Origin: Deltaproteobacteria bacterium
GTDB lineage: Bacteria; Myxococcota; Myxococcia; Myxococcales; 40CM-4-68-19
Assembly (NCBI GenBank): GCA_005879535.1
Contig: VBKI01000080.1
Location: 1 to 54,404, forward strand
Length of the DNA stretch: 54,404 nucleotides
Direction: 5' to 3'
The notes under the pieces are model-generated. The model ran no database searches. It had not been told where the DNA came from and saw only the letters and a program-made list of their open reading frames with translations. The first letter of the stretch is position 1, and each line of letters begins with the position of its first letter. Of the stretch, positions 22,526-47,435 are shown in pieces. Both the position numbers and the translations under genes were made by a program.

Positions 22526-25177
22526 TCACAGCGCCGACAGCAGATCCACCTTCACCAGGAGGGTGTCTCCGTGCGCCACGCCCGTGGCGCTGAGCGCGGA
22601 AAGCTCGCCGGTGTAATCGAGCCCTCTCGGAACGCCGCTGGTGAGGTCGTTCGAGCTCTGGTGCGCGTACACCAGATAGAAGGTCGAACCTGTGCGCCAT
22701 TCCCAGCGAAGGATCAGGTTCAGGTTCAATCCGACCTGCCGTTCGTTGGCGTCGACATATTGGTCCGGGGGAAGCGGAACGAGCTGGTCCAGCTTGACGG
22801 TCGGTCTCCCCGCTCGAGCGACGGTCGCGCCGAGCTGGTTGCCGTAGGAGATCCCCGCGGTGAAGAGCTGCCCGTACGCCTGCAGCGTGAGGTGCGGGGT
22901 GAAGGAGTATGTCGCGCGCAGCGTGGCGCTCAGGCTGCGCGCTTGCTGCGGCGCGAGCACGTACGAGCGCGCGCGGCGGGTCGGGTCCAATTCGCCGGGC
23001 AGTAGCGCCGGCGTCGCGATCTGCCGGATGGTGCCGGCGTTTTCGTTGTAGGCGAGGTCGAGCGTCCCATCGAGCCGGGGCATGGGCCGGAACACGAGCG
23101 TGCCGCCGAGCTGGTTCAGCCGCTCGAAGCGGGGAAAGGAACGGCCCTCGGTCCAGTAGAACTGGACCTGCAGCGGCTTGCGCGAGTCGGTCGAGAGATA
23201 TCCAAACCATTGCCAATTCGCCTGGCGCTCGATGGGCGTTCCGTCCTCGAGCTCGCGGTCGTCGACGAAGGGCGACCAGACGTCGAAGCCGGTTTCCCAG
23301 AACCAGAAGGAGTTGGTGTTCACCCAGCCGTCCACGAACACGTCGCGGTTGAGGCGGTGGGCGAAGGAATAGTCGTGTAGCTCGCGGATCCCCAGGATCA
23401 GTTGCGCCGCTTGCCAGTTCGGCCCGGGATGCGGATCTCGCCAGCCGGCGAACGCCATGCCGCGGAAAAGGTTGGCGCGCTGCATGAAGCCGAGGTCGTT
23501 CACGTTGAACTCCGGCGAGAGCAGATCGCCCTGCACGCCGAAGATCCCGTGCTCTCCGAAGCGGCGGAGCTTGCCGGAGAGCGCGTAGCCGCTGGACGTC
23601 GATCCCCGCAGCGTGCCGTCGCGCAGGAGCGCGGCATTGGCGCCGTGCAGTGTCGAGGCCACGCCCTGCAGGTCGGTTTCCCAGACGCGGTCGGAGGTAT
23701 AGAGGGTGAGGTCGCCTTCGCCGACATGCGCGTGGCGGCGGTCCGTGAGCCGCAGGCTGGGGCTGGTGAACACCGGCTCGGCGGCGGTCGCGGTGACGCC
23801 GGCGAGGCCGTAGTCCCCGAGCGGGGTTCGCGCCCGCGCCACCGAAGTGAAGCGCGCCTCCGTCGAGCGCATGTTGTCGACCCGCTCGGGAAGGCAAGCG
23901 GTGCCCGAAGAATCGCAGGGCGTCCCCGGCTGCAGCACTTGCGCGAACACGCGCGGCTCGAAGGCGGTGAGCAGGCCGACGCTGGCCGATCCGACCGTGC
24001 CCGTCATCTTGACGGCGCCGAGAACGGGGACGAACGGCTGCTGGTAGACGATCTTCTGCTCGTCGGCGAGGTCGAGGTCGTCGCGCGTCGGCGTCCCCCG
24101 GCCGATGCGACGCGAGTAGAAGATCTGGTACACGTCGCCGCCGTTCGGGCCGCCCAGATCGGCGCGCAGCGCCGGCTTGAACAGATCGAGGCCCTCGAGG
24201 AAGAACGGCCGCTTCTCCGGAAAGAACGTCTCGAAGGTGGTGAGATTGAGGACGCGCTGGTCGGCTTCCACCTGGCCGAAGTCCGGATTCACCGTTCCCA
24301 CCAGCGCCAGATCGCTCGCGAGGTTGTAGCGAAAGTCGAGCCCGGCGCAGACGCCGCCCTGACGCTGCCGGTCGAAGGCCAGCGTCGCGCAGCTCCCCAG
24401 CTCGGACCGGGGCGTCGCGTAGGTCGGGACGTTGCGCACCGCCTTGAACCCGACATAAGGCCGGAGCTCCAGCTCGCGCACTGGCCGGATTCCTTCGATG
24501 CCGTCGATCAGGCCCAGCCGGCTGATGTCGCCCTGCCGCCCTTGCGGGCGAAAGCGCCACTGGTCCTCCTCCTTCCGCCGGGAGAGGATCCGGTAGACGT
24601 TGAAGCCCATGATCTTCGCGCTTTCGGGGATGCGCATGACGCGCAGGGGGATCCTCATCTCCACCGACCAGCCGTTCGGCGTTTGAGCCACCGCGGAGTC
24701 CCAGGCCGCGTCCCAGTCGGTAGTCATGTCGGTGTCGTTGAAGTGGATGGCGTCGAGCTGTTGGCCGGCGGCGTAGACCTGGAAGTGGTAGGCGGTCCGC
24801 CGATCGAACGTGGTGTCGAGGTCGAACTGCACCGAGTCGCCCTCGATGAACCGGTCGCGGCGGCTGAGGGTGGCGGTGGCGCCCTCCGGGTCGTCGCAGA
24901 CGGCGCCGAAATAGAGGTACTCGTCGTCCCAGAGGACGCGGAAGGCAGTGCGGACGGTCGCCGGGCGTCCCTCGTCGGGCGTCACTTGCGTGAAGCCGTC
25001 GTGGAGCGGAGCCGCCTGCCACGCGGGCTCGTCCATGCGGCCGTCGATCTCGATGCGCGGTCCCGTCCGCCGCGCGGCATGCGCGGTGCGGATGAACGTC
25101 GACTCCGGCGGCAGCTCCTTCTGCGCCTGCGCGACGGCCGGCGCTGCCGCCGCGAGGAGCAGCAGGGTTGCCCGCAT
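22526..25177 (-). CDS. DUF5916-type outer-membrane protein with N-terminal CBM9-like domain
   Basis: 883 aa. A signal peptide (MRATLLLLAAAAPAVAQAQ) is followed by a family-9 carbohydrate-binding-like domain: IEIDGRMDEPAWQAAP, RVLWDDEYLYFGAVCDDPE, VQFDLDTTFDRRTAYHF, WSVEMRIPLRVMRIP. The long C-terminal region, about 280-883, has alternating beta strands typical of an outer-membrane barrel. ATG 25177 starts exactly at the signal peptide; no Shine-Dalgarno seen. A sequence of this type often sits in envelope biogenesis or polymer handling, but the role is unknown. Three-gene unit with the UbiB kinase and the Cys-less thioredoxin-fold protein. Divergent from mutS. Confidence 0.88.
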   Translation of the reverse strand: MRATLLLLAAAAPAVAQAQKELPPESTFIRTAHAARRTGPRIEIDGRMDEPAWQAAPLHDGFTQVTPDEGRPATVRTAFRVLWDDEYLYFGAVCDDPEGATATLSRRDRFIEGDSVQFDLDTTFDRRTAYHFQVYAAGQQLDAIHFNDTDMTTDWDAAWDSAVAQTPNGWSVEMRIPLRVMRIPESAKIMGFNVYRILSRRKEEDQWRFRPQGRQGDISRLGLIDGIEGIRPVRELELRPYVGFKAVRNVPTYATPRSELGSCATLAFDRQRQGGVCAGLDFRYNLASDLALVGTVNPDFGQVEADQRVLNLTTFETFFPEKRPFFLEGLDLFKPALRADLGGPNGGDVYQIFYSRRIGRGTPTRDDLDLADEQKIVYQQPFVPVLGAVKMTGTVGSASVGLLTAFEPRVFAQVLQPGTPCDSSGTACLPERVDNMRSTEARFTSVARARTPLGDYGLAGVTATAAEPVFTSPSLRLTDRRHAHVGEGDLTLYTSDRVWETDLQGVASTLHGANAALLRDGTLRGSTSSGYALSGKLRRFGEHGIFGVQGDLLSPEFNVNDLGFMQRANLFRGMAFAGWRDPHPGPNWQAAQLILGIRELHDYSFAHRLNRDVFVDGWVNTNSFWFWETGFDVWSPFVDDRELEDGTPIERQANWQWFGYLSTDSRKPLQVQFYWTEGRSFPRFERLNQLGGTLVFRPMPRLDGTLDLAYNENAGTIRQIATPALLPGELDPTRRARSYVLAPQQARSLSATLRATYSFTPHLTLQAYGQLFTAGISYGNQLGATVARAGRPTVKLDQLVPLPPDQYVDANERQVGLNLNLILRWEWRTGSTFYLVYAHQSSNDLTSGVPRGLDYTGELSALSATGVAHGDTLLVKVDLLSAL

Positions 25178-25265
25178 CTGGATGGACAGAACGGCGGAGC
25201 CGGAGGAACATTTCACGGTCGTTCCCGCGGGTCCCGGCGCATGCGTCCGTGGTATCTGTGACGCG

Positions 25266-39895: not shown

Positions 39896-41737
39896 ATGGC
39901 GAAAAAGCCGCAGATCGACATCCGCGGGCTGAAGGACGAGGTCGCCGAGCACCTCAAGAAGTCGAGGTGGGAGAAGGCGGCCGAGGTCCTCGAGCAGCTC
40001 GTCGCCCTGGAGCCCAAGGACATGGCCCAGCGGCTCAGGCTGGGCGAAACATACCGCCGGATGGATCAGCCACAACTGGCCATCCAGGCCTACCAGCACG
40101 CGGCGAAATTCTTCGGGGACGAAGGCCAGCTGATCAAGGCCATCGGGGCGGTCAAGATCATCCTGGAGATCGATCCGCGCAACGCCGAGGCGCAGAGGCA
40201 GCTCGCGGCGATGAACGAGCGCCGGATCGGGAAGGTGTCGCTGGGGCGGACCGGCCTGAAGAAGGCACCGCCGCCGGCGCCTCGCCCCGCCGCCGCGAAG
40301 CCCGTGACCGCCCCGCAGTCAGCCCGGGTCGTCGACACGACGGGACACATCGAGCTGCCGGAGATCGGAGACGACGAGCCGCTCGAGCTCGACCATGGGA
40401 TGGCGGCCACGCCGCCTCCGCGCGGTCGCCCGCAGACATTGAGCAGCCGCGCGCAGGCCTTGAGCGGCGGCGTGGCATTGAGCGGCGGCGAGCTGGAAGC
40501 GGAGATCCCCGACGAGCCTCCTCCGCCGCCTCCGCGCGGCAAGCAGCGCGCGATCGCTCCGCTGGCGCCCCAGCCGCAGGCGGGGATCGATCTCGATCCG
40601 CTTCTGCCGCCGCCGCAGGCGGAGGCGCTGCCCGATGACGCCATCCTCACCCTCCAGGCGGAGGACCTGGTCGCAGCGCCGCACGACGAAGAGGTCATCT
40701 CGGGCGAGGAGTTCGTACGCCAGACAGGTCCCATCGCGGACCTGCTTTCCAGCGGCGTCGAAGAGGAAGTCGAGCTGCTCTCCATCACCGCCGACGAGGA
40801 GTTGGCAGGTGCGAGGCCTACCGCCGCGCCTGCCGTGTCCGCCGAGGACGAGGACTTCGATCGCGCTTTCGGCAACATCGCCGCCCCGCCCGAAGAGCGC
40901 GCGTCGAAGATGAACGCGAAGAAGGTGCCGCTGTTCGACGACCTTCCGCAGGACGCCTTCGTCGCCCTGGTGAACCGGCTGAGCTACCACCGCCACGTTC
41001 CCGGCCAGATCATCATTCGCGAGGGCGACCCCGGACGGAGCTTTTTCATCATCGTCGAAGGGAGGGTCCGGGTCTGCAAGAGCGCCCCCGACGGGAAGGA
41101 GCTCACGCTCGCGCACCTCGGCGAGGGCGCGTTCTTCGGCGAGATGGCGCTGCTCTCGGGCGCGCCGCGCACGGCGAACGTCATCTCGGAGGAGGACACC
41201 GAGGTCCTCGAGGTGACCGACAACATGCTGCGCGAGCTGGCCGGCAAGTATCCCCAGGTGATCTCGTCGCTGAAGAACTTCTATCGGCAGCGGCTCCTGA
41301 ACAACGTGATGGCCATTTCGCCGTTGTTCAAGGACTTCGATCCCTCGCAGCGCAAGGCCATCGTGGAGAAGTTCCGCATGCGTCAGGCTGCTCCACAGGA
41401 GAAGATCATCGTCGAGGGGAAGAGCTCGGACGGCCTCTATGTGGTGCTCCACGGCATCGTGGAGGTCTCCACCCAGCAGCGACAGGTGGCGGTCCTCAAG
41501 GAAGGCGAGATCTTCGGGGAGATGTCGCTCCTCACCCGGGAGCCGGCCGCCGCGACCGTGAGCGCACAGACCAATTCCATCCTCCTGCGACTCCCGCGGG
41601 ACAGCTTCCAGGAGCTGGTGGTCACGCATCCGCAGATCCTCGCGCTGGTGAGCGAGCTGACGGAGAAGCGCCGCAGCGCCATCGAGGCGATCCTCGAGGG
41701 CCAGGGCGAAGGCCACGACGGAATGAGCTTCGTCTAG
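39896..41737 (+). CDS. TPR protein with two C-terminal cyclic-nucleotide-binding domains
   Basis: 613 aa. TPR-like N-terminus about 15-110 (LEQLVALEPKDMAQRLRLGETYRRM, AIGAVKIILEIDPRNAEAQRQLAAM), a long Pro/Ala/Glu-rich linker about 115-345, then two cNMP domains. The first (about 352-470) has the cassette FGEMALLSGAPRTANV with the phosphate-binding Arg. The second (about 480-600) has FGEMSLLTREPAAATV, without the Arg, so it probably does not bind cNMP normally. No HTH, so not a CRP factor. ATG 39896 follows AAAGGGGGCGG. Confidence 0.9.
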   Translation: MAKKPQIDIRGLKDEVAEHLKKSRWEKAAEVLEQLVALEPKDMAQRLRLGETYRRMDQPQLAIQAYQHAAKFFGDEGQLIKAIGAVKIILEIDPRNAEAQRQLAAMNERRIGKVSLGRTGLKKAPPPAPRPAAAKPVTAPQSARVVDTTGHIELPEIGDDEPLELDHGMAATPPPRGRPQTLSSRAQALSGGVALSGGELEAEIPDEPPPPPPRGKQRAIAPLAPQPQAGIDLDPLLPPPQAEALPDDAILTLQAEDLVAAPHDEEVISGEEFVRQTGPIADLLSSGVEEEVELLSITADEELAGARPTAAPAVSAEDEDFDRAFGNIAAPPEERASKMNAKKVPLFDDLPQDAFVALVNRLSYHRHVPGQIIIREGDPGRSFFIIVEGRVRVCKSAPDGKELTLAHLGEGAFFGEMALLSGAPRTANVISEEDTEVLEVTDNMLRELAGKYPQVISSLKNFYRQRLLNNVMAISPLFKDFDPSQRKAIVEKFRMRQAAPQEKIIVEGKSSDGLYVVLHGIVEVSTQQRQVAVLKEGEIFGEMSLLTREPAAATVSAQTNSILLRLPRDSFQELVVTHPQILALVSELTEKRRSAIEAILEGQGEGHDGMSFV

Positions 41738-41814: not shown

Positions 41815-42570
41815 CTATTTCCTCGCCGCGCGTTGCCCGAGCTCGCCGCGGCGGACGACGCCCTTGTCCTGGAGCAGGTCGACCAGCGCGCGGAAGGCGC
41901 GGCTCTGGGCGTTGATCGTCCGCTCCAACCGGATGATCAGCGCCTTCAGCTCCTCCAGCGCGTTCTGCGACGCGCCGTCCGGAGCGATGATCGCGATCTG
42001 ATCCTCGTCGTCCGGCTCCAGCATCGCTTCCGGAAACTCCGCCTCGGCCGTGCGGTCCGGCACCGATCGCGGCCGCGGCGCGCCCAGCGGGATGTCGGGA
42101 ATCGCCGAGAGCGGCTCGCCGAGGCGCGGGCGCGGGACCCGCTCGCCGAAGTAATACCTGCGCATCGCGCGCTCGATGCTGCTCATCGAGGCGAGTGCCG
42201 GCTCCAGCGCGTAACCGCAGATCCGCGCCACTTCCTGCAGGGCCTGCCGATCGGGCTCCGCCGTGGCGACGCGCAGGACGCGCTCGCGCTCGTTCACTTC
42301 GAGGGGAAAAACGCCGTACCGCTCGCAGGCGTCGACCGGCAAGCAGCGCAGGGCGCGGGAAGGAACCTCGGTGCCGTCGAGGTCGACGACGTCGAGCCCG
42401 AGCTGCTCGGAGAGGGCGATCATCAAGTCGTCCTCGCTGACGTAGCCGAGATCGACAAGCGTCTGCCCCAGCTTCCCGCCGAAAGCGCGCTGGTCGCTGA
42501 GGGCGGCGATCAGCTTCTCCGAGTCGATCACTCCGCGCGAGATGAGGATGTCGCCGAGCTTCCCGCTCAT
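41815..42570 (-). CDS. MshEN (GspE/PilB N-terminal-like) domain protein
   Basis: 251 aa. Two N-terminal repeats, GDILISRGVIDSEKLIAALSDQR and GQTLVDLGYVSEDDLMIALSEQLGLDVVDLDG, form the MshEN/T2SSE-N domain that in some ATPases binds c-di-GMP; LPVDACERYGVFPLEV and VATAEPDRQALQEVARICGY follow. No ATPase domain is present, so this is a stand-alone regulatory module. C-terminus has a coiled helix (ALEELKALIIRLERTINAQSRAFRALVDLL). ATG 42570 overlaps the upstream stop by 4. Confidence 0.85.
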   Translation of the reverse strand: MSGKLGDILISRGVIDSEKLIAALSDQRAFGGKLGQTLVDLGYVSEDDLMIALSEQLGLDVVDLDGTEVPSRALRCLPVDACERYGVFPLEVNERERVLRVATAEPDRQALQEVARICGYALEPALASMSSIERAMRRYYFGERVPRPRLGEPLSAIPDIPLGAPRPRSVPDRTAEAEFPEAMLEPDDEDQIAIIAPDGASQNALEELKALIIRLERTINAQSRAFRALVDLLQDKGVVRRGELGQRAARK

Positions 42571-43535
42571 CGCTTTTCCTCCGCGATGCGCACCGGCTCC
42601 CAGGCGGCCTTGCGCCCGTGCACGGTCAACAGCGCCGCCTGGCCTGCCACGGTCGAGCCGTCGGCCATCGGCCAGGGCGTCCGGTCCGCGGCGCCCGGGT
42701 TCAGGTAGAGCTGCGCAACCTCGGTCTTCGGTGGCACCGGGGCGCCGCGCCCGTCGACGGCGCGACCGCCGGATTCCCAAACCTGTCCGAAGATGCCGAA
42801 CTGCGCCTTTTGCAGGAGCTGCGAGAGCCGGGGGTCGCCAAGATTCTGGCCGTCGCTGACGTCGAGCGCGCGCACGTCCTGCCCGCGCGGCGGAATCGAT
42901 GCCACGAAGATCGCGGGAGCGGTGACGCGGTCCAGGGCGGCGGAAACCGCTTCGATGTCCTTCTGCACGTACACGCAGGCGCCCTCGGAGTGCAGCTGAC
43001 GCCGCTCGAACGCTCCGGGGAGGCCGACGACGGTCGCATCTCCCAGATCGGCGATCCGCGTATGGGAGAGGTCGACGATGCGCGAGCCTTTCTTGCGCAG
43101 CTCGGCCTCGACCGCATCGAGCTCGGAGCGCACCTCGCGGTTGCCCGCGATGGCAAGGACGGGGAGCCCGCTCTCCGCCAGGGATCCGAGAAGGGTCTCC
43201 TGTTCGTCCGGATTGTCGCCCAGGTCGCCGTCGGCGATCAGCGCCTCGGCACCTCGCCGTTTCAGCTCGGCGACGAGCTTGCGGATGAAGGCGACGTTCT
43301 CCTCGTCCGCATCCTTCAGGCCAGCCAGCACGCCGATCTTCAGCTCACCGGTCGCGGTCCGGAGCTTCTCGCGCGCGCCGGGAGCATCGAAGGGCGCCGC
43401 GCAGGCCGGGTCGCTCCGCAGCGCCGACACCTGCCGTCCCGGAACAGGCGTCGTCGGCGGCGCAACAGGAGCGACCACCTTCTCGCGACATGCCATCATC
43501 GCAAGGAGGATCAATCCGGAGATTCTGGAGCGCAT
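42567..43535 (-). CDS. Metallophosphoesterase-like lipoprotein, first metal motif missing
   Basis: 322 aa. Signal MRSRISGLILLAMMAC with lipid Cys16, so probably membrane-anchored and periplasmic. Calcineurin-like blocks: LIADGDLGDNPDEQETLL (GD-x-x-D-like), VLAIAGNREVRSE (GN-[RH]-E) and ATVVGLPGAFE. The first family motif, D-x-H, would fall at IGVLAGLKDADEE but has no His, and GNHE is changed to GNRE. Metal-dependent catalysis is therefore doubtful; it may be a binding relative. Confidence 0.75.
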   Translation of the reverse strand: MRSRISGLILLAMMACREKVVAPVAPPTTPVPGRQVSALRSDPACAAPFDAPGAREKLRTATGELKIGVLAGLKDADEENVAFIRKLVAELKRRGAEALIADGDLGDNPDEQETLLGSLAESGLPVLAIAGNREVRSELDAVEAELRKKGSRIVDLSHTRIADLGDATVVGLPGAFERRQLHSEGACVYVQKDIEAVSAALDRVTAPAIFVASIPPRGQDVRALDVSDGQNLGDPRLSQLLQKAQFGIFGQVWESGGRAVDGRGAPVPPKTEVAQLYLNPGAADRTPWPMADGSTVAGQAALLTVHGRKAAWEPVRIAEEKR

Positions 43536-43588
43536 CCACGCGCAGTTTCGGCGCTCTACGGCTTCAGATCAATGAAGGTTTTTGGTTT

Positions 43589-44986
43589 TCAGGCAGTGTG
43601 GGGTGGGAGGGCGCGGCCGAAGCGCGAACCGACTGCGGCGCCCAGGGCGAAGAACTGCAACAGCGCGAGGATGGAGACGCCCAGCCAGGGAACGAAGGCA
43701 ACGAGGAGCAGCACTGCCATTCCCATTCCGAGCGCGGCAGGAGCCACGAACCGCTGGCCGGGGCCTGCGGGCAGGGACTCGCCGATTCGCAGGGCGAACG
43801 AAGACAGCCCCATCACGATGCTGAGGAAGATGATCACCGGAAGCAACGGGATCAGCGGAATCCCGACGATGCTGATCGCGAGCAGCACGATGAGCGGGAG
43901 AAGCAGCAGCCAGCAGAGGAAGCCGACGGTGAAGCTGCGCACCGGGCTTTCGAACATGGCAAACCCGACGTTGCGGATCCGCTCCGGCCACATCCGCAGG
44001 ACCACGAGCCCGATCAGGTATATGAGCGCGAACAACGCGATCGTGGGGAAGAACCCGAACGGCCCAAGTCCGGTCCGCCATCCCCGATGACGGGAGCCGG
44101 AAAGCATCTTCCCGAGCCCTACCTGGACGTGCTCGCCCATCACCTGGCCGCCGCGCTCCACGTCGACGGATCCGAGCACCGCCACCGCCTGGCCCATCAC
44201 CAGCGCGCCCTGGTTGACGGTGACGCTGCCGCCAACGGCGACCGCATCGCCCTGGACCACGCTGCCGGGTTCCAACTCGATGGAACCGCCCACGCAGACG
44301 ACGTCGCCTTGGACGATCTGCCCTTGCTGGACAGCGATGTCGCCTTGGAACACGCGGACCACGTCGCGGCTGTTCCGCTTGCCGCCTTTCACGATGCCCC
44401 GATGCTCGCCGAGCACGCGCTGCCGCGATGACATCTTCTCGATCAGCATCCCGGCGGCGCCGCCAGCGTCGGGCGTGGCCACCACCACCAGCTTGTCGTT
44501 CTTGAGGACGCCCATCGCGCCGCTCTGCTTCAGCACCTGGCGCAGCGCCTCGCGCGGATCGGCGTCCTGGATGTCGACGTCGATGCGATCCTTGGGAGAC
44601 CCCACCAGGGTCATCGTCCAGCCCGCGGTCTCCGCGATGCGGTGCAGCAGTTGCGCCGTGGGGACGTTGCGGCCTTTCTCCGTGAAGTGGGGAAGCTCAC
44701 GCGCGCTTTGGGGGGAGAACCTCTTGACGCGCGGAGGTACCGGCGGGACCGGCGGAACGGGAGGGACCGGCGGAACGGGAGGCAGGACTTCCAGGTCGTC
44801 GGAATCCGCTTCCGCGTCGGCTTCCGCTTCCGCGTCTCCGGAGGCTTCCTCGTCAGGGCTGGTGACGTGGACGGTGAGCACGCGGTCCGCGATCCGGCCT
44901 ACCACCCGTCCGACGGCACGGTCTCCGAAATGCTCGACAAAGAACCCGCCGTGGGCCAGGAGAACGCTGAGCAAAAGTCCGGTCAT
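43589..44986 (-). CDS. Membrane protein with STN-like domain, beta-helix repeats and C-terminal TM bundle
   Basis: 465 aa. Order: acidic low-complexity (GDAEAEADAEADSDD), a PPV repeat (about 69-84), an STN/secretin-N0-like domain about 100-170 (LLHRIAETAGWTMTL to GVLKNDKLVVVA), a left-handed beta-helix of G-D-V-V-x-V-G-G-S repeats (QIVQGDVVCVGGSIELEPG, SVVQGDAVAVGGSVTVNQG, ALVMGQAVAVLGSVDV), then four TM helices with IVGIPLIPLLPVI. The beta-helix plus VGIPL bundle is known from bactofilin-like genes beside ECF sigma factors. The STN-like module is an unusual addition. 3 bases from the anti-sigma gene. Confidence 0.85.
   Translation of the reverse strand: MTGLLLSVLLAHGGFFVEHFGDRAVGRVVGRIADRVLTVHVTSPDEEASGDAEAEADAEADSDDLEVLPPVPPVPPVPPVPPVPPRVKRFSPQSARELPHFTEKGRNVPTAQLLHRIAETAGWTMTLVGSPKDRIDVDIQDADPREALRQVLKQSGAMGVLKNDKLVVVATPDAGGAAGMLIEKMSSRQRVLGEHRGIVKGGKRNSRDVVRVFQGDIAVQQGQIVQGDVVCVGGSIELEPGSVVQGDAVAVGGSVTVNQGALVMGQAVAVLGSVDVERGGQVMGEHVQVGLGKMLSGSRHRGWRTGLGPFGFFPTIALFALIYLIGLVVLRMWPERIRNVGFAMFESPVRSFTVGFLCWLLLLPLIVLLAISIVGIPLIPLLPVIIFLSIVMGLSSFALRIGESLPAGPGQRFVAPAALGMGMAVLLLVAFVPWLGVSILALLQFFALGAAVGSRFGRALPPHTA
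44737..44784. repeat. 9-base tandem repeat encoding PPV
   Basis: About five copies of a 9-base unit (ACCGGCGGG / ACCGGCGGAACGGGAGGG) encode Pro-Pro-Val on the minus strand. The DNA is internally repetitive, so the copy number may vary between strains. Confidence 0.7.
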
Positions 44987-44989
44987 CGA

Positions 44990-45484
44990 TCAGGACTTCG
45001 CGGCAATGCGCGCGTAGGCCGGCTTGAGCGTCCGCGAGAGGGCGGTGAGCACCACGGCCAGGAACACGAAAGCGCCGATCCCGAGCGGCACGCGGACGGC
45101 GTCGAAGACCGGGCTCAGCGCGACCCAGATGGTGCGAGCCGCGGAAACGCCGTCGATCAGATGATTGACCTGGGCGTTCAGGGCCCACCCCACGATGGCG
45201 AAGAGGGCGAGCGCGAACGCCGGGATGGCGGCGAGCAGCGTGTGGCGGCGGGTGACGAGCTGCGCCTCGCGCATTTCCACGGCGGCGAGGACGGTGGCGG
45301 TGAAGTCTGCCGGCACCTCGGGGTCCGTCAGCGCGGAGAGCCGGGTGGTGAGCGCAGAGTAGACGGACAGCTCCGCGCCGCACTGCTCGCAAGCGTCGCA
45401 GTGCTCACGCGCGGCGAAGCCCTCGGGCCCGCGCAGCGTGCCGTCGGCAAGCGACTGGAGCTGATTGTCGGTGAGGTGATTCAT
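44990..45484 (-). CDS. Anti-sigma factor, zinc-finger type
   Basis: 164 aa. N-terminal cytosolic ZAS-like motif HCDACEQC (from residue about 28) after LTDNQLQSLADGTLRG, the layout of anti-sigma factors that bind an ECF sigma. Two predicted TM segments (LLAAIPAFALALFAIVGWAL and LGIGAFVFLAVVLTAL). Overlaps the sigma gene by 4 bases (45481-45484), so the pair is translated together. It should hold the sigma factor inactive until an envelope signal. Confidence 0.9.
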   Translation of the reverse strand: MNHLTDNQLQSLADGTLRGPEGFAAREHCDACEQCGAELSVYSALTTRLSALTDPEVPADFTATVLAAVEMREAQLVTRRHTLLAAIPAFALALFAIVGWALNAQVNHLIDGVSAARTIWVALSPVFDAVRVPLGIGAFVFLAVVLTALSRTLKPAYARIAAKS

Positions 45485-46128
45485 GAGAGGTGCTCCGACA
45501 GCTGCGCCTTCAGCTCCTTGCGCGCGCGGTGCAACCAGGTCATGACGGTGCCCATCGGCACCCCCAGCGCCTGCGCGATCTCGACGTAGCTTTTATGCTG
45601 GATGTGAAAGAGCGCAATCACCTCGCGGTAGCGCGGCGGCAGCGCGGCGACGGCGCGCTCCAGGTCGCGCTGCGCTTCCTCTTCCTGGACCCGCTGCTCG
45701 CCGGAGACGGCGAAGTGGTCGGGAAGCTCCGGAGCGACGCCGGTCTCGGGTCCCTCGTCGCTCCGGCCTTCCGCGGCCAGCGTCAGCATCGGCCGGCGGC
45801 GGCGGAGGAGATCGATGCAGTGGTTCCGCGCGATTCGCAGGACCCAGGCGGCGAAGGGCTGGCGCGGATCGAAATCGCGGATGCCGGTGTAGGCGCGGAC
45901 GAACGCCTCCTGGGCAGCGTCGCGCGCCTCTTCGCCTCCGCCGAGGAGCCGGAAGCAGAGACCGTGGATGGACTGCTTGTGCTTCTCCACCAGGCGCGCA
46001 AACGCGGCCTTGTCACCGCCGGCGGCGGCGCGCGCCCACTCCGCCTCGTCGGCGGGGCAGGCGGAGCGGACCAGCTCAGTTCCGGGCGCCAAGGTCAAGG
46101 GCAAGGGAAGCGCGAGTGCCGTGTCCAC
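45481..46128 (-). CDS. ECF RNA polymerase sigma factor
   Basis: 215 aa. Sigma-2 region about 45-115 (AFARLVEKHKQSIHGLCFRLLGG, EEARDAAQEAFVRAYTGIRDFDP, FAAWVLRIARNHCIDLLRRRR) and sigma-4 about 155-210 (LERAVAALPPRYREVIALFHIQHKSYVEIAQALGVPMGTVMTWLHRARKEL). RpoE-type. Paired with the anti-sigma gene and the downstream STN/beta-helix membrane protein. A candidate ECF promoter sits directly upstream, which would mean autoregulation. Confidence 0.94.
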   Translation of the reverse strand: MDTALALPLPLTLAPGTELVRSACPADEAEWARAAAGGDKAAFARLVEKHKQSIHGLCFRLLGGGEEARDAAQEAFVRAYTGIRDFDPRQPFAAWVLRIARNHCIDLLRRRRPMLTLAAEGRSDEGPETGVAPELPDHFAVSGEQRVQEEEAQRDLERAVAALPPRYREVIALFHIQHKSYVEIAQALGVPMGTVMTWLHRARKELKAQLSEHLS

Positions 46129-46136
46129 AGGGCCTT

Positions 46137-46163
46137 CTACGGCCGTCAGGAGGGGAGTATTTC
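46137..46163 (-). promoter_or_regulatory. Candidate autoregulated ECF promoter
   Basis: Minus strand: GAAATA (46163-46158), 16-base spacer, CGTAG (46141-46137), then the sigma ATG at 46128. An ECF -35 (GAAC-like) with a CGT-type -10 is the pattern sought. Only a rough match. Confidence 0.25.
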
Positions 46164-46166
46164 ACT

Positions 46167-47417
46167 TCAGAAGTAACCCCGCTCGACCAGCAGGCAACCG
46201 ACCCCCACCGCCAGCGGGATGAAGGTGCATAACGCACCCAGCCAGAGGAAGCGCAAGAACGGGATTTTCCCTTTGTCTCCCGCAAGTTCGAGGACGATCA
46301 GGTTCGCGACCGAGGCCACGGGAGTGAGGTTGCCGGCGAGCGTCGAGACCAGCGCGAGCGACAGCCAGCCGAGATGCGGATCGGCGAGCTTCCGCACCCA
46401 CTGCGCCGCGAGGAGAACGAAGGGCACGTTGCTGACGATCTGGCAGGCGGCCACGGTGAACACTCCGAAGCGGACCGTCTGCTGCGTCGCGTCAGAGCCG
46501 AGCGCGGGCGCAAGAGCCGAATGGATACGCTCGGCGATCCCTGCCTGGGCAACGCCGTGGGTGACCACGAAGAGTCCGGCGAAGAACAGCAAGAGGGTCC
46601 CGTCGACCTGCGCGAACATTTCCTTCGGCGGCTGGCGGGAGAGCGCGAGCAGGAGCGCGGCTCCCGTCATCGCGGTCCAGGCGAGGTCGTACCCGAGCAG
46701 GAAGCCGGCGAGAACGAACGCGAGTCCGGCGGTGCAGAGCAGCGCCAGCTTTCGATCGAGCGGCGGCGCCGGCACGTCGACGGAGATGCGCTTCCAGGAA
46801 AGGTCCCGCCGGAACGCGACCAGCAGCACAGCGAGAACGGCGGCGAGCGAGAGCAGCGCCGGGAGCAGCAGCGCTTTGCTGAACTGCGCGTAGGAAATGC
46901 CGCTCAGGGTGCCGATCAGCATGTTCTGCGGATTGCCGGTGAGCGTCGCGACGGATCCTGCGTTGGACGAAAACGCAAGCCCGAGCAAATAGGGGAGCGC
47001 GGGAAGGGCCGCCGCCTCGACGAGGGCGACCACCAACGGCGTGCACATCACGCAGACGGTATCGTTCACCAGCAGCGCCGAGAGCGTTCCCGCGACCAGC
47101 ACGAGCACCGCGAGCAGCGCGCGGGGACCGTGCGCGCGGCGCAGCGCGACCCAGGCGATCCAGCGAAAGATTCCTGCGCGCGCCATCACGCTGGTGATCA
47201 CCATCATGCCGAGCAGCAGGACGAGCGTGTCCCAGGAGATCGCGTCCCGGTAGACCTGTGCCGGCGTGAGGACGCCGAGCGCGACCATCGCCACCCCGCC
47301 GGCGACTGCTCCTCCGGGCCGATCGAGCTTCAGGAACGGCAGCTCCGCGCCGGCGAGGAACAGGTACGTCGCGACGAAGATGATCAGCGCTGCGAGCACC
47401 TCGCGTAGCTGAACCAT
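46167..47417 (-). CDS. ArsB/SLC13-type anion permease
   Basis: 416 aa, about eleven hydrophobic segments. ArsB/NhaD/CitT ion-transporter superfamily signs: VNDTVCVMCTPLVVALVEAA, SSNAGSVATLTGNPQNMLIG (helical hairpin with the GNPQN motif) and, in the second half, NVPFVLLAAQWVRKL and TLAGNLTPVASVANLIVLE (the mirror-image NLTPVAS hairpin). Two inverted repeats of this type form an anion path. The substrate cannot be told from sequence by eye; arsenite, sulfate and dicarboxylate are all possible. ATG 47417 is back to back with the SDR gene. Confidence 0.88.
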   Translation of the reverse strand: MVQLREVLAALIIFVATYLFLAGAELPFLKLDRPGGAVAGGVAMVALGVLTPAQVYRDAISWDTLVLLLGMMVITSVMARAGIFRWIAWVALRRAHGPRALLAVLVLVAGTLSALLVNDTVCVMCTPLVVALVEAAALPALPYLLGLAFSSNAGSVATLTGNPQNMLIGTLSGISYAQFSKALLLPALLSLAAVLAVLLVAFRRDLSWKRISVDVPAPPLDRKLALLCTAGLAFVLAGFLLGYDLAWTAMTGAALLLALSRQPPKEMFAQVDGTLLLFFAGLFVVTHGVAQAGIAERIHSALAPALGSDATQQTVRFGVFTVAACQIVSNVPFVLLAAQWVRKLADPHLGWLSLALVSTLAGNLTPVASVANLIVLELAGDKGKIPFLRFLWLGALCTFIPLAVGVGCLLVERGYF

Positions 47418-47435
47418 GTGTGCGAAGAATGGGCA

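Follow-up and report, generated by a model that had tools for sequence, protein, structure and literature searches.

A run of genes on the minus strand of a myxobacterial contig raises the question of how an envelope signal could reach an ECF σ factor whose anti-σ factor appears to offer almost nothing for sensing on the periplasmic side, and of which neighbouring genes belong to the same regulatory unit. The window (the whole stretch of DNA analysed, 54,404 nucleotides) comes from a genome of family f1 of its order; f4 and f6 denote related families. The genes concerned, listed in the direction of transcription, are as follows.

47429-46167, minus strand: CitMHS/ArsB-like transporter, upstream of the σ factor gene
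45481..46128, minus strand: ECF σ factor, SigW-like (Pfam Sigma70_r2 1.2e-19, Sigma70_r4_2 7.8e-18)
44990..45484, minus strand: ZAS (HxxxCxxC) anti-σ factor with two membrane helices and a short loop (invariance of H28, C32 and C35; hydropathy)
43589..44986, minus strand: STN/β-helix/multi-helix membrane protein, 465 amino acids (profile, AlphaFold, Foldseek, gene linkage)
42567..43535, minus strand: putative lipoprotein, 322 amino acids, a predicted calcineurin-fold pseudo-phosphoesterase; accessory module (Foldseek 1.6e-7, metal motifs lost)
41815..42570, minus strand: stand-alone MshEN protein, 251 amino acids; accessory module (PF05157 2.1e-17)

The σ factor/anti-σ factor unit and its conservation

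All genes named in a preliminary description of this DNA were present in the order and on the strand given there. The stand-alone MshEN gene placed near the unit was also confirmed, but at 42570-41815 it lies just beyond the interval 42567-46128 of that description. The genes for the σ and anti-σ factors overlap by ATGA, as do those for the lipoprotein and the MshEN protein; the remaining gaps are 3 nt (anti-σ factor to STN protein) and 53 nt (STN protein to lipoprotein). The transporter gene (46167-47429, minus strand) is found upstream of the σ factor gene in many members of families f1 and f6.

The σ factor consists of regions 2 and 4 only, as the ECF class requires (Pfam). Its best NCBIfam score was obtained with SigW (149.5 bits), below the equivalog cut-off of 209, and on this score the protein is classed as SigW-like, not assignable as SigW proper. 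The anti-σ factor matched no Pfam family, and its matches to NCBIfam anti-σ/ChrR models were weak; the ZAS residues His28, Cys32 and Cys35 were invariant in 15 homologues. Hydropathy analysis placed hydrophobic helices at residues 80-107 and 125-154. Since only about 20-30 residues separate them, the protein is predicted to be almost devoid of a periplasmic sensing part. As in SigW-RsiW systems, where the σ factor is set free by regulated proteolysis of its anti-σ factor, a membrane-anchored ZAS anti-σ factor is encoded next to the σ factor gene, and the coupling of the two proteins that had been proposed is supported.

Conservation of the unit was surveyed with a β-helix/TM profile over a phylum sample of 116 genomes. 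Matches were obtained in 76 of them, nearly all inside the same order, and 66 loci were usable. An ECF gene lay just upstream of the STN/β-helix gene on the same strand at 64 of these 66 loci, an anti-σ factor gene was present at 61, and at least one STN domain was detected at 62 (two or more at 13). Within this set the ECF neighbour went undetected in two units and the STN domain in three or four distant ones. Given these frequencies, the trio is an old, fixed unit, and by gene order it is the conserved core, common to one order of myxobacteria. Related families carry the unit as well, in some cases in genomes assembled completely into a single contig.

The STN/β-helix membrane protein

Four regions were distinguished in the product of the third gene of the trio.

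44729..44788, minus strand: Pro-rich hinge with Pro-Pro-Val (PPV), residues 67-86 (read from the translation)
44471..44701, minus strand: STN (secretin N0-like) domain, residues about 96-172 (PilQ N0 matched by the family profile at 3.2e-11; domain match)
44120..44359, minus strand: β-helix, residues about 210-289 (AlphaFold model)
43610..44071, minus strand: membrane domain with VGIPL motif, residues 306-459 (hydropathy, AlphaFold model)

With the window sequence alone, the Pfam STN match was weak (0.031, under the cut-off). Pfam STN matched 16 of 20 homologues, with a best value of 6.4e-20, and the family profile matched N0 domains from solved PilQ structures at 3.2e-11. In the AlphaFold model (overall pTM 0.45) a β-α-β domain at residues 101-170, a β-helix at about 210-289 and membrane helices at 312-459 were each predicted with high confidence. 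Foldseek neighbours comprised DotD, the N0 domains of PilQ and GspD, FpvA and a putative anti-σ factor; none reached an E value of 0.001, which is unsurprising given the small size of STN relative to the long query. The preliminary description had assigned an STN/secretin-N0-like domain and a PPV hinge to the 43589-44986 product and had put forward profile search and structure prediction as a check on the former. Both approaches found the similarity, the predicted STN fold falling at residues 101-170, and the domain is thereby borne out by family profile, homologues and fold; the hinge was located at residues 67-86.

With the N0 domains of the secretins PilQ and GspD and with DotD, the window protein has the domain fold and the profile match in common; it differs from them in lacking a secretin channel domain and in being fused to a β-helix and membrane helices. 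The likeness of the β-helix to bactofilin was weak, PF04519 matching three of 20 homologues (best 0.0049) and staying short of its cut-off. Two or three STN domains in tandem occur in homologues elsewhere in the order; one such protein (L044, from the order relative G012) carries an N-terminal PEGA domain followed by three tandem STN domains. Since a clear export signal is present at the N-terminus of many homologues, the STN domain and the β-helix should be periplasmic.

Promoter motif and predicted regulon

Sequences resembling an ECF-type promoter were found at two places in the window, where 0.01 matches were expected.

46138..46164, minus strand: ECF-type promoter of the σ factor gene, TGAAAT-N17-CGTA, with its end 9 nt ahead of the GTG start codon (family alignment)
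25190..25215, minus strand: second copy of the promoter motif (motif scan of the window)
22526..25177, minus strand: predicted regulon member, exported CBM9-like protein of 883 amino acids, starting 12 nt after the second site (CBM9_1 3.4e-14)

The SigW promoter consensus is TGAAAC-N16-CGTA, and a SigW-type autoregulatory promoter of the form TGAAAT-N16/17-CGT[AT] precedes the σ factor gene in family f1. When the upstream regions from 11 f1 genomes were aligned, TGAAATA was invariant and a CGT[AT] box followed 16-17 nt after the hexamer; loci without the transporter gene upstream have retained this promoter too. The position of CGTA 9 nt before the GTG start, with a spacing conserved in the family, suggests that the σ factor message may be leaderless or nearly so. 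Among 63 units, 20 had a close form of the motif before the σ factor gene, where 0.018 matches were expected per unit. At f6 loci, [TC]GAAATA-N15-CGTA was found in 12 of 12 cases at steady positions. At f4 loci, NGCAAT-N16-CGTA was likewise steadily placed in 13 of 14, a softer count because the variants were chosen as best matches.

Enrichment on the genome scale was judged with the reversed pattern as the only control: (i) TGAAATN16-17CGTW occurred 13 times in the window's own genome versus once reversed; (ii) TGAAATN16-17CGTA occurred 75 times versus 12 in 12 f1 genomes; (iii) TGAAATAN15-16CGTA occurred 26 times versus once in 10 other genomes. Of the 66 motif sites examined, 46 had a gene start no more than 70 nt downstream, compared with 12.3% of random positions, and at 25 the downstream product had a hydrophobic N-terminus (0.7% at random). 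In f1 the genes behind the motif code for peptidases (M16, M13, M3, S8, DUF885) and for Amidase_3, LolA-like, CBM9-like exported, TPR and small membrane proteins; in other families they include PspC, Yip1, DUF2807 and signal peptidase II. Sites before M16 and small-membrane-protein genes recur across species. The unit probably controls secreted peptidases and membrane-protection genes, with the caveat that the motif might also serve a different ECF factor encoded in this genome. Among the products behind the motif are one-helix membrane proteins of about 60-90 amino acids (L167, L174 from the window's own genome; L185, L198, L201 from relatives), which have an FPIALAI-W motif in common and belong to no Pfam family.

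The system resembles SigW-RsiW of Bacillus in the SigW-like score of the σ factor, the neighbouring ZAS membrane anti-σ factor, the autoregulatory promoter close to the SigW consensus and a regulon of membrane and envelope genes. It differs in having an additional STN/β-helix membrane protein fixed in the operon, in a two-helix anti-σ factor without a periplasmic domain, and in f1 targets rich in exported peptidases.

Candidate signal route and the lipoprotein-MshEN pair

We consider it fairly probable that the locus encodes an autoregulated envelope-stress ECF system into which the signal enters through the STN/β-helix protein. From the promoter sequences, the σ factor would drive its own gene from the SigW-like promoter, and the same promoter would serve the scattered genes for exported peptidases and membrane proteins; the adjacent ZAS anti-σ factor should hold the σ factor at the membrane. 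Because the anti-σ factor is almost without a periplasmic part, the signal would come in through the STN/β-helix protein. We infer this sensor role from the fixed linkage, the predicted periplasmic domains and the lack of a sensing domain in the anti-σ factor. The trigger would be contact of the periplasmic STN domain and β-helix with envelope material that is misassembled, with a secretin-like partner or with the wall, whereupon the membrane domain could destabilise or expose the anti-σ factor, and the freed σ factor would drive its own operon and the envelope regulon.

Each part is of a known kind; what sets the locus apart is the combination of STN on an inner-membrane β-helix protein with a ZAS/ECF pair and no TonB-dependent receptor. 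No description of the STN/β-helix unit was found in the literature searched, which did not take in the main ECF classification, so that it may have been noticed earlier. More tentatively, we put forward as possible, if doubtful, a new type of ECF input: an inner-membrane protein carrying a β-helix and between one and three STN domains on its periplasmic side would take the place of both the TonB-dependent transducer and the sensing domain of the anti-σ factor. It would monitor the envelope (perhaps the machinery of secretins or pili, with which N0 domains normally associate) and, across myxobacteria, would drive a regulon of exported peptidases, PspC and Yip1, to which one family would have added a c-di-GMP input. 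For this lineage, which has many uncharacterised ECF factors, the promoter and its target genes provide a concrete candidate envelope-stress regulon. The arrangement also suggests that a signal could pass from the envelope to an ECF factor by way of STN, with no need for a TonB-dependent receptor.

The main competing explanation, which we hold to be unlikely, makes the STN/β-helix protein an effector: a σ-dependent protective membrane scaffold, with the anti-σ factor sensing the state of the membrane through its two helices. In G126 the STN/β-helix gene has a promoter-motif copy of its own, which is also compatible with such a role, and further regulon members are membrane proteins. Moreover, a β-helix joined to a multi-helix membrane domain, with a link to envelope stress and PspC, is known from phage-shock partners such as Toastrack/LiaF (PMC11237479); the window protein differs from these in that it has no Toastrack family match, its β-helix is predicted to be periplasmic, and it carries STN in addition. 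The place of the gene beside that of the anti-σ factor, fixed in nearly all units, and the absence of any other obvious sensing domain from the anti-σ factor speak against an effector and for the sensor role favoured here.

The preliminary description had extended the envelope signal chain to the two downstream genes. The lipoprotein model adopts a calcineurin-like fold (best Foldseek match 1.6e-7), and Cys16 is invariant. Active metallophosphoesterases carry the ligand motifs DxH, GDxxD, GN(H/D), H and GHxH, in place of which the f1 proteins have GLK, GDLGD, GNRE, Ser/Ala and GQVW. Motif I (DxH) is absent from the family and from all relatives examined. The motif IV histidine, kept in 18 aligned relatives, is replaced by Ser or Ala in f1, and motif V reads GQVW or GEVW. 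The claim of a degenerate phosphoesterase without the first metal motif therefore stood, motifs III-V being degenerate as well; likeness to calcineurin-like enzymes is confined to the fold and to remnants of the GD and GN motifs. With its metal ligands lost the lipoprotein should be a pseudoenzyme, and an active phosphoesterase was rejected. Weak Pfam matches to Amidohydro_3 and TIM-barrel families were likewise discarded in favour of the calcineurin-like fold given by the model and Foldseek.

The MshEN protein contains PF05157 and two RLG...Q motifs.

42403..42561, minus strand: two 24-residue c-di-GMP motifs with a 5-residue spacer (pattern check against PMC5013675)

Both motifs are intact save for Arg to Lys at the start of each, an exchange that the relaxed MshEN motif allows (PMC5013675). 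The protein has both motifs and the spacer in common with the MshEN c-di-GMP receptors described there, from which it differs, apart from these lysines, in being stand-alone, with no ATPase. As the window's own genome has nine MshEN matches, one more such gene is unremarkable; 22 MshEN genes were reported in Myxococcus xanthus (PMC5013675).

A single pathway with STN as sensor, the pseudo-phosphoesterase as relay and MshEN as reader of c-di-GMP would suit the co-directional genes with their short gaps, the ATGA overlap of the last two and the conserved c-di-GMP motifs. The pair adjoins the σ unit in f1, a lipoprotein relative lies directly downstream of the unit in G135, and the pair is found, more loosely linked, 2 kb upstream of it in G062. 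Against this, most ECF units of the order are without both genes, and the pair occurs without the σ unit in several families (L061, L062, L067, L069, L078). Even inside f1 the arrangement is interrupted or incomplete: unrelated genes separate the STN/β-helix and lipoprotein genes in two genomes, and the MshEN gene is missing at two loci. A search upstream of the lipoprotein gene found no copy of the σ promoter, and the lipoprotein would be periplasmic and the MshEN protein soluble, which would put them in different compartments. We regard such a pathway as improbable; comparative gene order led us to reject it as the core reading and to view lipoprotein and MshEN as a separable pair, added to the σ operon in one family. 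Of the proposed chain, the periplasmic STN/β-helix input fits the conserved linkage and the near-absent periplasmic domain of the anti-σ factor, and the inclusion of lipoprotein and MshEN in the same chain is not upheld. A c-di-GMP input through MshEN is possible in f1, where the module may add c-di-GMP-dependent tuning to the system.

Fec/Pup-type cell-surface signalling with a displaced transducer was rejected as very improbable: an STN domain beside an ECF/anti-σ pair is common to the Fec, Fpv and Pup systems (TonB-dependent transducer, anti-σ factor, ECF factor), and Foldseek relates the STN fold to FpvA and a putative anti-σ factor, but the STN protein shows membrane helices instead of an outer-membrane TonB-dependent barrel (Pfam, AlphaFold), placing STN on an inner-membrane protein, and the 20-30 or so residues between the anti-σ helices leave no periplasmic STN-binding domain like the CJM-STN domain with which PupR binds its transducer (PMC7186176).

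Convergent with the MshEN gene lies a gene for a TPR protein with a double cyclic-nucleotide-binding domain (39899-41737, plus strand); the pair faces a cyclic-nucleotide-domain gene in the same layout at locus L067. The myxobacterial calcineurin-fold pseudoenzymes (42567-43535 and L061-L078) all lack motif I; one branch of the family travels with MshEN genes, and another, of the GHILE type, does not.
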